From contig NZ_LWLN01000001.1 in NCBI RefSeq assembly GCF_001953745.1, positions 3,038,001 through 3,102,000 of the forward strand: a DNA stretch of 64,000 nucleotides, read 5' to 3'. A model generated the notes under the pieces. That model searched no databases. It was not told the origin of the DNA and saw nothing but the letters and a program-made list of their open reading frames with translations. Every line of letters begins with the position of its first letter. Position 1 is the first letter of the stretch. This document shows positions 1,821 to 37,201 of the stretch, one piece after another. Both the position numbers and the translations under genes were made by a program. The stretch is from Natrinema saccharevitans (GTDB lineage Archaea > Halobacteriota > Halobacteria > Halobacteriales > Natrialbaceae).

Positions 1821-1893
1821 GGGATCGTGGGTTAGCTTGGTATACTTCGGGCCTTGGGTGCCCGTGACCCCGGTTCAAATCCGGGCGATCCCA
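1821..1893 (+). tRNA. tRNA-Pro (anticodon UGG)
   Basis: A 73-nt cloverleaf can be drawn. The acceptor stem GGGATCG pairs with CGATCCC, with discriminator A. The anticodon stem CGGGC/GCCCG encloses loop CTTGGGT, giving anticodon TGG with T33. The T stem CCCGG/CCGGG encloses TTCAAAT. CCA is not encoded. A strong hairpin starts 2 nt downstream, and a near-copy of the last 21 nt occurs at about 1988-2008, so the 3' end was a likely integration or duplication site. Confidence 0.95.
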
Positions 1894-1894
1894 T

Positions 1895-1930
1895 ATTGCT
1901 GCCGCGAACAACTTCGTGAGCGGCAGCAAT
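1895..1930 (+). terminator. Hairpin immediately 3' of tRNA-Pro
   Basis: A perfect 11-bp stem, ATTGCTGCCGC/GCGGCAGCAAT, encloses a 14-nt loop and starts 2 nt after the tRNA. It could be a trailer structure or termination aid. No long T-tract follows, so classic archaeal U-rich termination is not evident. Confidence 0.5.
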
Positions 1931-1937
1931 TGGAACG

Positions 1938-2008
1938 AGCCCGGATTTGAACGAGAGAACGGCGAGCGATAGCGAGCCGTTCGCGTGGTTCAAATCCGAG
2001 CGATCCCT
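1938..2008 (+). repeat. tRNA-derived palindromic cassette ending in a tRNA-Pro 3'-end duplicate
   Basis: An inverted T-arm copy (GCCCGGATTTGAAC) is followed by a core, GAGAGAACGGCGAGCG then ATAGCGAGCCGTTCGCG, and then a direct near-copy of the tRNA-Pro 3' end (GGTTCAAATCCGAGCGATCC; one mismatch). The same core, one base shorter, occurs after tRNA-Arg at 37024-37092. The layout tRNA, about 95 nt, tRNA 3' duplicate resembles a minimal attL/attR pair, but no integrase is present. Confidence 0.75.
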
Positions 2009-2086
2009 CCGGTATCGTGAACGATCGGTAAGCGGTGGCTACAAGATCGGATTCTAAGGTTCTGCGCGGAGCGCAGGTTCTCGAGC

Positions 2087-2353
2087 GTGACTCGAGTTCC
2101 AAGTGAGACTCGAGAAGCGTATGGCCTCGAGTTCGACGAGAACGGTGATCCGCGACAGATGCGGATCGATACGATCCTCTCGCGACTGAAGGCCGACAGC
2201 TTCGAGAACGTCGCGACGATCGCCACCGAGGCCCTCGAGAAGTGGTCGAAGTCGGGGAACGACCCGACCGTCCTCCGCGGTGTCGAGCTGACCTGGAAGA
2301 CTCCGGGCGGCGGGACTGAAACCGGATTCGTCGGCTCGGTTGCGGATCGGTGA
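2087..2353 (+). CDS. Small hypothetical protein downstream of tRNA-Pro
   Basis: This GTG-initiated frame encodes 88 residues. The segment REAYGLEFDENGDPRQMR, followed by a helical stretch (IDTILSRLKADSFENVAT), looks like real protein rather than a shadow frame. An internal ATG at 2159 would give a 64-residue product. I recognise no family. It sits between the tRNA-Pro cassette and the left repeat of the restriction gene, so it may belong to the accessory block or be a remnant of an integrated element. Function unknown. Confidence 0.4.
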   Translation: MTRVPSETREAYGLEFDENGDPRQMRIDTILSRLKADSFENVATIATEALEKWSKSGNDPTVLRGVELTWKTPGGGTETGFVGSVADR

Positions 2354-2483
2354 ACCGGCCCGGGTAGTGGCAACACTCTCGGGACCCCTCTTTTCTGCAA
2401 GTTAGGTTGACTACCACGGTTTCGTCTGCAACTCTGGTTGTAGCCAGTGGCTCGAGGGCGGGGGTCGGCACCGCGATCGCACC

Positions 2484-2588
2484 GCAACGCCGGCGGGGTC
2501 GTTTCGCGCTTCGCGCGAAAGCCCCCTTGGCGGGTGTCCCCAAGGGGACAGTGCCAAAAAATTACACCGCCCCGCCTCTGCCTCCGTA
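2484..2588 (+). repeat. Left flanking direct repeat of the restriction-modification gene
   Basis: About 100 nt here align in the same orientation with 5983-6086, with shared blocks GCCGGCGGG, TTCGCGC, GCGAAAG and GACAGTGCC; identity is roughly 70% by eye. It contains the perfect palindrome GTCCCCAAGGGGAC. The two copies bracket the low-GC gene at 2721-5645. Confidence 0.6.
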
Positions 2589-2720
2589 CGCAGATCTCCA
2601 GTTGAAGCACATGAAATAGGGGTTGGGAATATCAGATATTTCCAAAATAAACCATGTTTAGACTATCTGAATATAGTGGCTTGAGAATGCTATTCGCCTC
2701 TCAAATCGCTCAAGAAGGAG
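2589..2720. other. AT-rich spacer downstream of the restriction gene
   Basis: GC content drops sharply here. Two inverted repeats are visible: GGAATATCAGATATTTCC at about 2637, and CTTGAG/CTCAAG arms between about 2680 and 2714. Either could help end transcription of the minus-strand gene. No gene is seen. Confidence 0.4.
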
Positions 2721-5645
2721 TTATTCGCCCATCTCAGTGAGTTCGATTAGTTCAAGCAACAGCCCTGTGTACAGTTCTTCTAATAATTCGTCCTGTTGCT
2801 CCTCATCGTATCCGACTATATCCAATATTTCCTTATCCAACTCGCGCCGTTCTTGGAACCCTTCGCCAATTTCGTCACGTGCTTCGTAGTGCTGTTCGAC
2901 GCGCCGTTCATCTTCGATACTTAATTTGCTAGGATCTGCAAGCAGAATCATCTGCTTGATAATGCTCGGGCATTCTACATTCTTCCACGCTTCCCACGCC
3001 TCATCAAGTTGGTCTTGATCCGCTTGCGACAACCTGTTGATATCGAATCCGTAGAACCCAGACTGAGAGTAGCGACGATACTTCGTCCATGCCCCTTCAA
3101 CTGGAATACGAGATACGAACAATTGAAGGAGACCAATTGTGCTGTCGAACCACAGCGCCATTCGTCGTGCGTCTTCTCCTGTGATGTTCGTGTGCATCCA
3201 CATGCGGTGCCAAACACGTGACTTTTCAGAATAGTAGACTGGATGACGCGTTCCAGGTGCAGTCAATTTAATTGTCTCTGGGATTGCCATATGAGCGGCA
3301 TTCTCCGTAACGTGTTCTTCCCAGTTTCCAGGTATGTTTTCCTCCTCAGCCAGACTTAGAAATCGATCAATTCCGTTGAATGGACGCACAACGGTGTATT
3401 CTTCGATGTCGGTTACATCAACCTTCGCTCGGTACGGTTTCCGGAGGAAGTATGGCTCAACTGAACTTCGCGGAATTTCAATTTCTTCGTTGATGTGCTT
3501 GTGTGCAACTACTAAGGGGTCGTCATCATCTTTGACTACCCATACGTCGTTCTTTCGCGTATGTGTCTGGGGATCCGCAAGGATCCCACTCGTCCACGGA
3601 TGGCTGCTACCGCCACGGGTCAAACCCGGATCCAAGTCCTTGACCTGACACAACTTCTCGTCGTTATCGACGATTTCGTACCACCGCTTGATTAAGTCAC
3701 GCTCTTTCACTGAGAATGTAGAGAAGAGGTTGTGTTCGTCTAGTTCTTCCAACGGGACTCGCCAGACGGTAGCTTCAGATCCGTTCTGACCAGACACTGT
3801 TTGTGCCTCACCTGGCTCAGCGTTTCGGAGCGAATCAGCTACTGTCCGAATATCATCTGAATCAACGTCAAGCCCATCAAAGGACACACAAGCAACAGAC
3901 TCGCCGTCTTCAGGTTCGCCTTTGCGAGCAATGATCATGACTTCTCGTAGATCAGTATCTTCTGAGAAATTGGATGCATCTTCACGAGCAAACAGGAATT
4001 CGATACTGTACTCGTTTAGGAGCATCTGTCGAATTCCTGAATCACTTGACTTATTAAGTACACTCGCTGGTAGGACGGCTGCAATCCGACCACCTGGTTC
4101 TAAGAACTTGTCAGCAAGAAATAGAAAATATGAACAATAAGACATCTTCCCGTGAATGTGTCCCTTGTTGTCTCGCCGGGAGAACCGGTCACGGAGCCTA
4201 TCTTTGTATCCATCAGCAAATCCAGCTACAGATTCCTGTCGAGTGAACGGCGGATTCATGATCACTGTGTCTACGGTCGTCAGTGTCATTTCCTTCCCTG
4301 CTACTGCATCCATCGCGACACTGCCAGACTCAATAGTTTCCTCACTTACATTAGGGCGTTGACCATCTGAGAACTCAGCAAGACCACGTTGCTCATTCTT
4401 CTGAGGAAGAACGAATGAGAGAGGACTGATGGTGCTTCCCGGACGTAATTTTGTCGAGTCTTCAATACCAATATTCACCTCGTCCGTCTCGTAGATAGGA
4501 GCTTGTAATGCAAGATGGATACAAGATAGGTGAGCCGCGAACGGCATCACGTCGATTCCTGCGATATCATTCTCAACGAATTCCTGATGTTGCTGTTCGC
4601 TGAATCCACTTTCAGTTAGAGAACGTTTCCGGAGATATGATGCTGCAAGTAGAGATCCCGACCCACACGCTGGATCCATTACTTTAGCATCCGAGTTATG
4701 AATTGACAAGTCCGCGAGTATCTGGGCGGGTTTATTCATCGTGTAGTACGCTGCGACCTTCTTCCGTGCTTTATGAGGAATTAGCTCATGGAATACTTTA
4801 CCCAGAACGTCGTGTGTGATGGTTTCTGGCCGAAGAGCATAGATACTCTTAATCGAGTCTCTAAGTGTGTTAAATGCCGTTTGTGGCAGATCATTTGCAA
4901 TTCTGAAACTAAATACCGGAGTATAGTCTACTTCAAGAACGAGATCGAAGTATTCAGCAAGATCACTTGGTGTACTCAGCTTATCTGGATCAATTTCCGG
5001 GAATTGTTGAGATGATGATAGTACTCGGTAGAACGTAATTTGGTTAACGAGCAGAAATCCTGCTGTTTGTCGAGCGGCTTCACGTTCTTCTTCGTCTTCA
5101 GGAGATGCACCGAGAACGTTCCGGAATAAGTTCTCGTCAGGTGCGGTTTCAAGTTCTTCATTCAATCGGTAGGCTGTCTGACGTAAGACGCTAACCACTT
5201 CATCTGGATCTGGCTCGGGGGTTCGCTCGTCCCGGATATGGCTGTTCAGCCAACGCGGAATTTCCTCTAAATCCAGTTTCGCGGTATCTGTCGGGGCATC
5301 ACGCCGTAGGAACGCCACACTGTATTTGTGGCCACTGAGTACGGATTCGGCAGTGTTTGTGAGTCGCGCCTGCCCTCCCTCGTCTTTCAATTGGTCTGGA
5401 TAGCAGATTAGAAAAGTACCGTCAACGCCTGTGATTTGCCCATAGTCGCGCGCTTCTGCAAATCCTTCCCACTTATTGCTCTCCCACTTTGCCTCCCCCA
5501 AAAACCTCCCGTTTGTTGATACTTGAAAGTCTGGCTGTGACCGCGTCCCAGGGGTTGAAATGGAAACCTGTGTTACGGCTTCAACTCCGTTGTCACGGAG
5601 ATAGGATGCCATTAGATCCGTTATTCCGTCTTCGGTTGCAGACAT
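2721..5645 (-). CDS. Single-chain restriction-modification protein: PD-(D/E)XK nuclease fused to N6-adenine methyltransferase (type IIG-like)
   Basis: The product has 974 residues from the chosen ATG at 5645. The N-terminus carries a PD-(D/E)XK nuclease signature (SQPDF with D39, then FLGEAKWE with E51 and K53). The middle holds an N6-adenine methyltransferase: KVAAYYTMNKPA, the SAM motif DPACGSGSLL near residue 324 and the catalytic NPPF near 464. The C-terminal 400 residues probably include the target-recognition region. This matches type IIG or Eco57I-like enzymes that cut and modify with one chain; cleavage is inferred. The start was chosen because TTTATG about 35 nt upstream could serve as a TATA box and the earlier in-frame ATG lies inside it. 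GC and codon use are far below the neighbours, which indicates transfer. No specificity subunit is nearby. Confidence 0.88.
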   Translation of the reverse strand: MSATEDGITDLMASYLRDNGVEAVTQVSISTPGTRSQPDFQVSTNGRFLGEAKWESNKWEGFAEARDYGQITGVDGTFLICYPDQLKDEGGQARLTNTAESVLSGHKYSVAFLRRDAPTDTAKLDLEEIPRWLNSHIRDERTPEPDPDEVVSVLRQTAYRLNEELETAPDENLFRNVLGASPEDEEEREAARQTAGFLLVNQITFYRVLSSSQQFPEIDPDKLSTPSDLAEYFDLVLEVDYTPVFSFRIANDLPQTAFNTLRDSIKSIYALRPETITHDVLGKVFHELIPHKARKKVAAYYTMNKPAQILADLSIHNSDAKVMDPACGSGSLLAASYLRKRSLTESGFSEQQHQEFVENDIAGIDVMPFAAHLSCIHLALQAPIYETDEVNIGIEDSTKLRPGSTISPLSFVLPQKNEQRGLAEFSDGQRPNVSEETIESGSVAMDAVAGKEMTLTTVDTVIMNPPFTRQESVAGFADGYKDRLRDRFSRRDNKGHIHGKMSYCSYFLFLADKFLEPGGRIAAVLPASVLNKSSDSGIRQMLLNEYSIEFLFAREDASNFSEDTDLREVMIIARKGEPEDGESVACVSFDGLDVDSDDIRTVADSLRNAEPGEAQTVSGQNGSEATVWRVPLEELDEHNLFSTFSVKERDLIKRWYEIVDNDEKLCQVKDLDPGLTRGGSSHPWTSGILADPQTHTRKNDVWVVKDDDDPLVVAHKHINEEIEIPRSSVEPYFLRKPYRAKVDVTDIEEYTVVRPFNGIDRFLSLAEEENIPGNWEEHVTENAAHMAIPETIKLTAPGTRHPVYYSEKSRVWHRMWMHTNITGEDARRMALWFDSTIGLLQLFVSRIPVEGAWTKYRRYSQSGFYGFDINRLSQADQDQLDEAWEAWKNVECPSIIKQMILLADPSKLSIEDERRVEQHYEARDEIGEGFQERRELDKEILDIVGYDEEQQDELLEELYTGLLLELIELTEMGE

Positions 5646-5769
5646 GTATTGATGTTCAGCATAATGTGACACCTCGCACATAAACCCTGCCTGTTCTATA
5701 CTTCCAAGACTTGCAGGATAGGACGTATCCAGATACCGTGAGACCACCTATCTCTCTGGCTCCCTGAAG

Positions 5770-5876
5770 TTGTACGTCGACAGAATCCGATCTCCGAATA
5801 TGCACACGAGCCGCGACACCTCGTGTGCATCTCTCGAGTCGAGCCATCACTCGAGACGCGATTCTGTACGACTGGA
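5770..5876. repeat. Nested imperfect inverted repeat upstream of the restriction gene
   Basis: The inner arms ATGCACACGAG (5800-5810) and CTCGTGTGCAT (5820-5830) pair perfectly over 11 bp. Outer arms GTCGACAGAATC and GATTCTGTACGAC extend the palindrome to about 100 nt. It lies about 150 nt upstream of the restriction-modification start and could be a regulatory structure or a decayed element. No gene is seen between 5646 and 6171. Confidence 0.5.
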
Positions 5877-5982
5877 CCACGAGGGCCCGTCGTTGTTGGG
5901 CCGAAATGGGCGGTTCAGTGAGTCGAAAGAACGCTGATTTCGGGGGCGTGCGTACGAGTCTGTGAATCCGAATCAATGGCGA

Positions 5983-6086
5983 CGGCAAGCCGGCGGGACC
6001 GGTTCGCGCCTCGGGCGAAAGGCCCTTGCTGGGAGTCTCGAGGCCGACAGTGCCGAAAGATCCAGCACCCGGTCCGCGTCCGCTGC
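5983..6086 (+). repeat. Right flanking direct repeat of the restriction-modification gene
   Basis: This is the diverged second copy of the repeat at 2484-2588: GCAAGCCGGCGGG, TTCGCGCCTCGGGCGAAAG and CGACAGTGCC appear in the same order and orientation. It sits about 340 bp upstream of the restriction gene start. Confidence 0.6.
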
Positions 6087-36917: not shown

Positions 36918-37023
36918 GGTGGCCGACATTAGTGTATCGGAACCAATCAGAAATGGCACACGACCGACAGAGTAGGACCCGGAGACTCGTTTTCGCTCGA
37001 GCGCACGCCTGACGGGGAAACGG

Positions 37024-37092
37024 CGGGCGCGATGGGATTTGAACAACGCGAACGGCTCGCTACGCTCGCCGTTCTCTCGTTCAAATCCCACG
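37024..37092 (-). repeat. tRNA-derived palindromic cassette ending in a tRNA-Arg 3'-end duplicate
   Basis: Read in tRNA orientation (minus strand), TGGGATTTGAAC is followed by GAGAGAACGGCGAGCG, TAGCGAGCCGTTCGCG and then an exact copy of the tRNA-Arg 3' end (GTTCAAATCCCATCGCGCCC). The core is identical to the cassette after tRNA-Pro at 1938-2008 apart from one extra A there. The duplicate lies 103 nt from the tRNA 3' end. Confidence 0.75.
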
Positions 37093-37126
37093 TGCCGGTT
37101 CGCTCGTCACTACGTTCCTCGCTGCA

Positions 37127-37201
37127 CGGGCGCGATGGGATTTGAACCCACGACCGTCGGATTAGAAGTCCGACGCTCTTTCCGGACTGAGCTACGCGCC
37201 C
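37127..37201 (-). tRNA. tRNA-Arg (anticodon UCU)
   Basis: On the minus strand a 75-nt cloverleaf forms. Acceptor GGGCGCG pairs with CGCGCCC, with discriminator G. The anticodon stem TCGGA/TCCGA encloses CTTCTAA, giving TCT. The T arm is GTGGG-TTCAAAT-CCCAT. CCA is not encoded. A shared palindromic cassette follows 35 nt downstream. Confidence 0.95.

Follow-up and report, generated by a model that had tools for sequence, protein, structure and literature searches.

What kind of element lies directly behind the tRNA-Arg(TCT) gene of Natrinema saccharevitans, and how can its flanks match the tRNA that hosts it while its centre is common to a different tRNA gene? The question arises from a 64,000-nt stretch of this genome (GCF_001953745.1, NZ_LWLN01000001.1, positions 3,038,001-3,102,000 of the forward strand; hereafter the window), for which a first-pass annotation had described one palindromic core behind both tRNA-Arg and tRNA-Pro, each time with a duplicate of the host tRNA 3′ end and with arms that follow the host. 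All of this is borne out at both loci (Table 1): the core halves are exact in the two places, and the arms fit their own tRNA at every position (Arg) or with one mismatch each (Pro). The feature proper comprises 37024-37126 together with tRNA-Arg, 36990-37023 being ordinary flank. It is a 103-bp unit directly 3′ of the tRNA, and on the minus strand it consists, in this order, of a hairpin (hairpin A), an inverted T-arm copy (INV), the core hairpin and another direct copy of the tRNA 3′ part (F2), the first such copy (F1) lying within the tRNA itself. The order of parts is identical in the tRNA-Pro unit, which has the same core and a different hairpin A and arms. Homologues of the tRNA-Arg(TCT) hairpin A are found at tRNA-Arg(CCT), tRNA-Arg(CCG) and tRNA-Lys. 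The Arg and Pro units each fold better than 200 of 200 shuffles (z -4.9 and -8.3).

Table 1 Parts of the units behind tRNA-Arg(TCT) and tRNA-Pro(TGG), in coordinates of the window.
Feature	Position	Strand	Basis or match
tRNA-Arg(TCT), intact host gene	37127..37201	-	ARAGORN; Rfam RF00005, 72.5 bits
F1, tRNA 3′ part G53-N73, GTTCAAATCCCATCGCGCCCG, first direct copy, within tRNA-Arg	37127..37147	-	
Hairpin A and linker, TGCAGCGAGGAACGTAGTGACGAGCGAACCGGCACG, tRNA-Arg unit	37091..37126	-	
INV, inverted T-arm copy TGGGATTTGAAC, tRNA-Arg unit	37079..37090	-	12/12, 100% complementary
Core hairpin GAGAGAACGGCGAGCGTAGCGAGCCGTTCGCGTT, type A, tRNA-Arg unit	37045..37078	-	exact core halves (37063-37078 and 37047-37062); fold
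F2, second direct copy of tRNA-Arg 3′ end, GTTCAAATCCCATCGCGCCCG	37024..37044	-	21/21 vs 37127-37147
tRNA-Pro(TGG), host of the window's second cassette	1821..1893	+	ARAGORN
Hairpin A and linker, tRNA-Pro cassette	1894..1938	+	own sequence, unlike Arg hairpin A; fold
INV, inverted T-arm copy GCCCGGATTTGAAC, tRNA-Pro cassette	1939..1952	+	13/14
Core hairpin, type A, tRNA-Pro cassette	1953..1987	+	exact core halves (1953-1968 and 1970-1985); one base longer than Arg core (extra A)
F2, second direct copy of tRNA-Pro 3′ end	1988..2007	+	one substitution, 20/21

The surroundings of tRNA-Pro have features of their own. Just 3′ of the cassette, window positions 2000-6000 have a GC content of ~0.50 (~0.66-0.70 nearby) and contain the gene for a 1008-aa protein whose domains are N6_Mtase and Eco57I; this is probably a restriction-modification island at tRNA-Pro. 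On the 5′ side, positions ~1410-1485 (query 313-390) match dozens of places in genomes of the genus, and hence represent a dispersed repeat, in or near a coding region. A sequence of the form TACxGTATAAAAGTxAAGCGGGCG..TTTTTGCCGC occurs in many species 3′ of tRNA-Pro, or of the copy of the cassette in genome G004 (L103, L105, L106, L107, L121, L123), and possibly represents one terminus of a common integrated element.

Units of this kind are frequent in the genome. Rfam identifies 47 tRNA genes, and 18 of the 45 that were examined for downstream copies (~40%) have their own 3′ end repeated (at least 15/20) within 300 nt downstream, ten of these copies being 20/20. The 18 belong to Arg, Pro and many further tRNA types, and some loci have older, decayed second units beyond the first. 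Because T-loops are all alike, the null for a 15/20 match is loose (28/119), and a best-own-match test was used in its place: each of the 18 copies best matches the adjacent tRNA when compared with every tRNA tail in the genome, and the single exact tie involves two tRNA genes whose tails are identical. The host match of the copies is not chance. Scanning the units against Rfam returned no family above threshold except tRNA itself.

The attachment of the core to tRNA 3′ ends extends to other genomes, and the check proposed in the first-pass annotation was passed. A query built from nothing but the core, without arm sequence, gave 21 matches in the genomes of 149 relatives, all of them tRNA-linked, and zero with the core reversed. 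Nineteen lie on the strand of a tRNA gene, 45-257 nt 3′ of its end, including one (L324) in which the type A core hairpin serves as hairpin A of a tRNA-Ser unit; the remaining two (L319, L320) retain tRNA arms and 3′-end remnants. L320 is the same site as L028 (1-1445, G006:C31), where an integrated element separates the core unit from its tRNA: it lies between tRNA-Pro and the cassette, has ~14 nt in common with the tRNA end and carries a tyrosine integrase gene (Pfam Phage_int_SAM_1, with Phage_integrase just below the cut-off).

A structural pattern, GATTYGAAYNAGA-N16-46-GCGTNGTTCRAATC, was searched in GTDB species genomes and returned at least 120 stretches, which span more than 12 tRNA types. 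Among the 82 matches in the first 80 of these at least 120 loci, 77 lie 21-284 nt 3′ of a same-strand tRNA whose end they copy, mostly at 17-20/20; three others have a flipped core behind an opposite-strand tRNA (L170, L171, L207), and in the last two the tRNA is cut off at the edge of the locus. The fit between arms and adjacent tRNA seen in the window holds for these 77 of the 82. Exact matches occur in 94 of the 292 genomes of the class (reversed control, 0), and a looser signature that omits the core motif occurs in 16 of 19 Halobacteria vs 0 of 101 other Halobacteriota genomes. The structure is real and widespread in Halobacteria. As the first-pass annotation had supposed, we found no description of an element so built in the open-access literature, and to our knowledge it is undescribed.

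Similar units are present on an AT-rich Methanomassiliicoccales chromosome, to which one match of the structural pattern belongs (L135). In this genome, G334, searched with no core pattern, ~10 of the 28 tRNA genes have direct copies, some of them weak matches at the 16/20 cut used, and several of these copies are accompanied by inverted tRNA-end copies and a different core motif. Unbiased counts of tRNA genes with units are therefore available for three genomes: 18/45 in Natrinema saccharevitans, 10/30 in G094 and 10/28 in G334; the share of 107/119 in the pattern-drawn sample is biased, since that sample was drawn by a pattern with the core motif (plus the units of the window's own genome). 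The units of G334 (L257, L268, L269, L273, L276) follow the same plan in another sequence dialect: the copy reads GCTCAAACACCC or GCTTGAACACCC in place of GTTCAAATCCC, and the cores are bounded by TTAT and TTCTTAA or the like.

The general anatomy was derived from 186 units, mostly pattern-selected and including those of the own genome. They measure ~100-170 bp and are filled by hairpins, with neither integrase nor other genes inside, and their direct repeats flank ~80-180 bp. Many begin with a T-rich stretch that resembles a carried tRNA terminator. The direct repeat starts at G53|T54: G53 is universal, agreement at position 52 is about that expected from composition, and identity fades past base 73. 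The T-loop sequence GTTCRAATC, which is the only long sequence common to nearly all unit-bearing tRNA genes, occurs three times per unit, in F1 (within the tRNA), inverted in INV and forward again in F2. INV matches the tRNA at 8/10 positions or better in 169 of the 186 units, as against 1 of 186 shuffled units.

INV follows the host tRNA beyond the conserved loop. At the variable T-loop base, an A in the tRNA is accompanied by T in INV in 58 of 64 cases and a G by C in 12 of 13, and at T-stem positions 62-65 INV agrees with its own tRNA at 2.37 of 4 positions vs 1.42 of 4 with other tRNAs (p = 5e-20). The match through the acceptor is slight in haloarchaea (p = 0.014), and a control stretch showed nothing. 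Where F2 differs from the tRNA, INV sides 27 times with the tRNA and three times with F2, which rules out structural selection on the pairing of the arms. Changes confined to INV number 119 and those confined to F2 27, with the identical change in both at just 3 sites: the arms are thus not kept complementary after insertion, and look like independent, drifting copies of the tRNA.

In 120 of 178 good units the core is bounded by NAGA and GCGTN, giving an unequal AGA/GCGT internal loop, and its stem covaries: four positions are paired in 89-97% of cases vs 32-55% expected, as A-T, C-G and G-C types. This covariation indicates that single-strand folding matters, or mattered when the cores formed. 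At the tips of both hairpin A and core, most units read GARC-GNA-GYGA or GARC-AAnnnC-GYGA; these tips contain tandem G-A mismatches, and the two loop-adjacent pairs alternate between A-T and G-C. A further peculiarity belongs to distal or older copies at tRNA-Arg(TCT), which have one extra base in the T-loop, giving TTCATAATC or TTCACAATC (L081, L086, L087, L088, L089), and an acceptor part that matches the local GCG or GTG allele.

Cores and hairpins A are distributed differently among tRNAs. Clustering of both at a 90% identity level gives three core clusters, with 29, 29 and 17 units, each of which occurs at no fewer than eight tRNA species. Of the core clusters with several members, 10 of 16 include units with different acceptor tails, vs 2 of 23 for hairpin A, so that hairpin A is bound to its isoacceptor; it is shared more loosely among tRNAs with similar 3′ ends, such as Arg and Lys. 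At tRNA-Pro of this genus, related hairpins A (likeness 0.80-0.98 in four species, 0.60-0.74 for Natrinema saccharevitans) are combined with four unlike cores. The tRNA-Arg(TCT) units of Natrinema saccharevitans and G004 have similar hairpins A and different cores, the two genomes being 96% identical over this tRNA and the neighbouring gene, and tRNA-Lys units with similar hairpins A (L155, L195, L213) have arms that match differing T-stem alleles. The mobile cassette proposed in the first-pass annotation is partly supported: only the core crosses tRNA types, and the whole cassette seems not to hop, as hairpin A and arms keep to one isoacceptor. Of the two origins it had offered, copying or capture of the T arm is not proven, and a recombination product between T-arm sequences is the better fit.

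Units also form arrays, of up to five (L239). Different cassettes lie between copies that match at 19-20/20, and cassettes are reused at non-adjacent positions (L239, L160, L176). Tandem units can be identical or nearly so (L134, L238, G004); units within one array usually differ, and simple tandem duplication is thereby ruled out. The copy belonging to the tRNA-proximal unit is better in 23 arrays, equal in 21 and worse in 6. Core flips are rare and are clear in the three loci with an opposite-strand tRNA, where the arms are kept. A 114-bp unit at tRNA-Pro is present in G004 and absent in G006 with base-exact boundaries, a difference that could be a gain or a loss. Two loci (L134, L176) each contain a pair of tRNA genes of the same amino-acid specificity, both followed by arrays with cassettes in common.

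Comparison with known systems places the units apart from each of them. As in integrons, cassettes are arrayed between repeated sites, the youngest unit tends to be proximal, exchange would fall next to GTT, and an imperfect hairpin has an unequal internal loop and a covarying stem, a likeness that held when tested. Integron cassettes, however, usually have one open reading frame, whereas the units here are gene-free and 100-170 bp long; attC reads GTTRRRY / RYYYAAC, whereas the arms here read GTTCRAATC / GATTYGAAY, with C and not a purine as fourth base; the 3′ end of a host tRNA serves as the site, which differs per tRNA; cores are exchanged apart from the cassette body; and the units have no integrase gene. 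The SMR and PATE elements of Haloquadratum are likewise non-coding, palindromic and haloarchaeal, SMRs being ~80-110 bp and SMR-A inserting into palindromes (PMC3119063). They are reported to cause no target duplication and to insert not into tRNA genes but into other mobile elements (PMC3119063), whereas our units are flanked by ~21-nt direct copies, typically 17-20/20; and the terminal sequences of SMR, MITE and PATE are constant and independent of site, whereas the arms here follow each host tRNA. The units thus lack defining features of SMR/PATE, and we rejected that identity. Sites at which tyrosine integrases of the T-loop class (SNJ2 type) attach likewise leave the tRNA intact and have a direct repeat of its 3′ part starting in the T-loop, which in the units runs from G53|T54 to base 73, but the units are ~100 bp long without genes, contain an inverted T-arm and occupy many tRNAs per genome. 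The likeness to casposons and CRISPR lies in the duplication of a target at each insertion and in repeat arrays; the units contain an inverted copy of the repeat, and they are gene-free, unlike the Methanosarcina mazei casposon with its 14-nt duplication, terminal inverted repeats and Cas1 genes. The units therefore fail at least one defining feature of integron arrays, SMR/PATE and integrase att remnants, and are set apart from casposons and CRISPR by anatomy only.

The best explanation, which we put forward tentatively and by analogy, is a T-loop-directed, integron-like recombination of gene-free cassettes by a putative recombinase. Strand exchange would occur at or near G53|T54 of T-loop sites. 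Exchange between F1 and F2 would add or remove whole units and build arrays beside the tRNA, and exchange between INV and F2 would flip the core or swap it for that of a different unit; recognition would fall on INV-core-F2 folded into a hairpin with its conserved AGA/GCGT loop, as it does on attC in integrons. Arms could track the host while the core is common because exchange would fall within the T-loop, common to almost all of these tRNAs, and sequence outside it would remain with its tRNA. The start at G53|T54, the crossing of cores between tRNAs, the four cores at tRNA-Pro, the flips, the arrays, the quality of the proximal copy, the covariation and the boundaries of the 114-bp unit all speak for this model. 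Some tyrosine integrases are known to have their crossover in tRNA T-loops, and an altered attP core retargets one of them between different tRNA-Ala T-loops (PMC1762012); integron integrases work on folded attC hairpins with extrahelical bases (PMC3053210), and weak binding of the archaeal XerA to stem-loop att sites has been reported (PMC8371274).

Several observations weigh against T-loop exchange. No enzyme was found, and a search of IMG/VR gave no viral contig with the pattern. INV and F2 do not co-evolve (27 to 3), T-loop exchange alone leaves the match of INV to the host T-stem unexplained, the exact absence in G006 could be a deletion between direct repeats, and in polyploid haloarchaea repeats of 12-21 bp might need no dedicated enzyme to recombine. 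Gene conversion over short homology may account for core exchange equally well, and a dedicated enzyme might not exist. Anatomy, tRNA linkage, host match, arrays, the spread of cores over tRNA types, flips, stem covariation and the exact presence or absence of a unit are observed; what we infer in this model is the action of a recombinase, its identity and the origin of the first inverted copy. SNJ2 integrases are confined to Halobacteria (PMC8371274), and similar units in Methanomassiliicoccales would accordingly suggest a more general enzyme, or no enzyme at all.

Two serious rivals are less likely, each to a similar degree. The first is a short transposable element (hairpin A, INV and core, ~80-140 bp) inserted at tRNA 3′ ends with a ~21-nt staggered cut, the forward copies being its target-site duplication. 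Hairpins at both ends would recall palindrome-associated elements and the duplication Cas1-type integration; the exact boundary between the empty site of G006 and the filled site of G004, the T-rich start of many units and the way both forward copies follow the local allele despite T-stem variation (tRNA-Lys; L155, L195, L213) all agree with it. Insertion does not account for a host-specific inverted copy or for cores that move separately from hairpin A, and 21 nt exceeds the 14-nt duplication of the M. mazei casposon (PMC10359463). The second dispenses with a dedicated enzyme: fold-back template switching at tRNA-adjacent palindromes would create forward-inverted-forward copies, an order typical of double switching, and unequal exchange with gene conversion in polyploid cells would build arrays and spread cores. 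It suits the resemblance of INV and F2 to independent tRNA copies and the near-identical tandem units, but a simple double switch predicts that the start of hairpin A is repeated after F2, which is mostly absent; the AGA/GCGT loop conserved across genera requires a reason, and the sharp taxonomic limit (16/19 vs 0/101) is unexpected for a general replication error.

That the units act as RNA, as a structured tRNA trailer (terminator, 3′-processing or antisense) whose INV strand could pair with the T-arm of the tRNA or its copy, is improbable. Strong predicted RNA folds, the position of hairpin A directly 3′ of the tRNA with its T-rich start, and an INV that follows the tRNA T-stem are as such a trailer would have them; more than half of the tRNA genes have no unit, units are decayed or absent in close relatives, the complementarity of the arms is not maintained, and Rfam recognises just the tRNA. 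Least probable of all are scars of tRNA-integrating elements (attL/attR remnants of an SNJ2-type or other tyrosine integrase): such integrases do use tRNA T-loops (PMC1762012) and integrase elements occupy the same sites (L028), but an SNJ2-type attachment site is rejected because those elements share just ~13-14 nt of the tRNA end and sit between tRNA and intact cassette (L028, L207); at the end that is visible they lack INV and core, and one regular anatomy with shared cores would not be expected of scars.

Returning to T-loop exchange, its general form is a possibility we hold with more reserve than the model itself: haloarchaea, and Methanomassiliicoccales in another dialect, may possess gene-free cassette recombination with T-loops as attachment sites and folded hairpins as cassettes, a tRNA-anchored archaeal counterpart of the integron that perhaps uses a general chromosomal recombinase. 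In practical terms, some 40% of the tRNA genes of this genome carry a structure for which we found no description in the open-access literature, and the partial tRNA copies in the units can mislead tRNA finders and island finders. Because integrating elements adjoin the units, the way in which tRNA 3′ ends turn into hot spots of gene exchange in archaea becomes testable. If the cassettes move via the T-loop, this would explain how short non-coding DNA spreads harmlessly to dissimilar tRNA genes, and would mean that arrays of hairpin cassettes exist beyond bacterial integrons.
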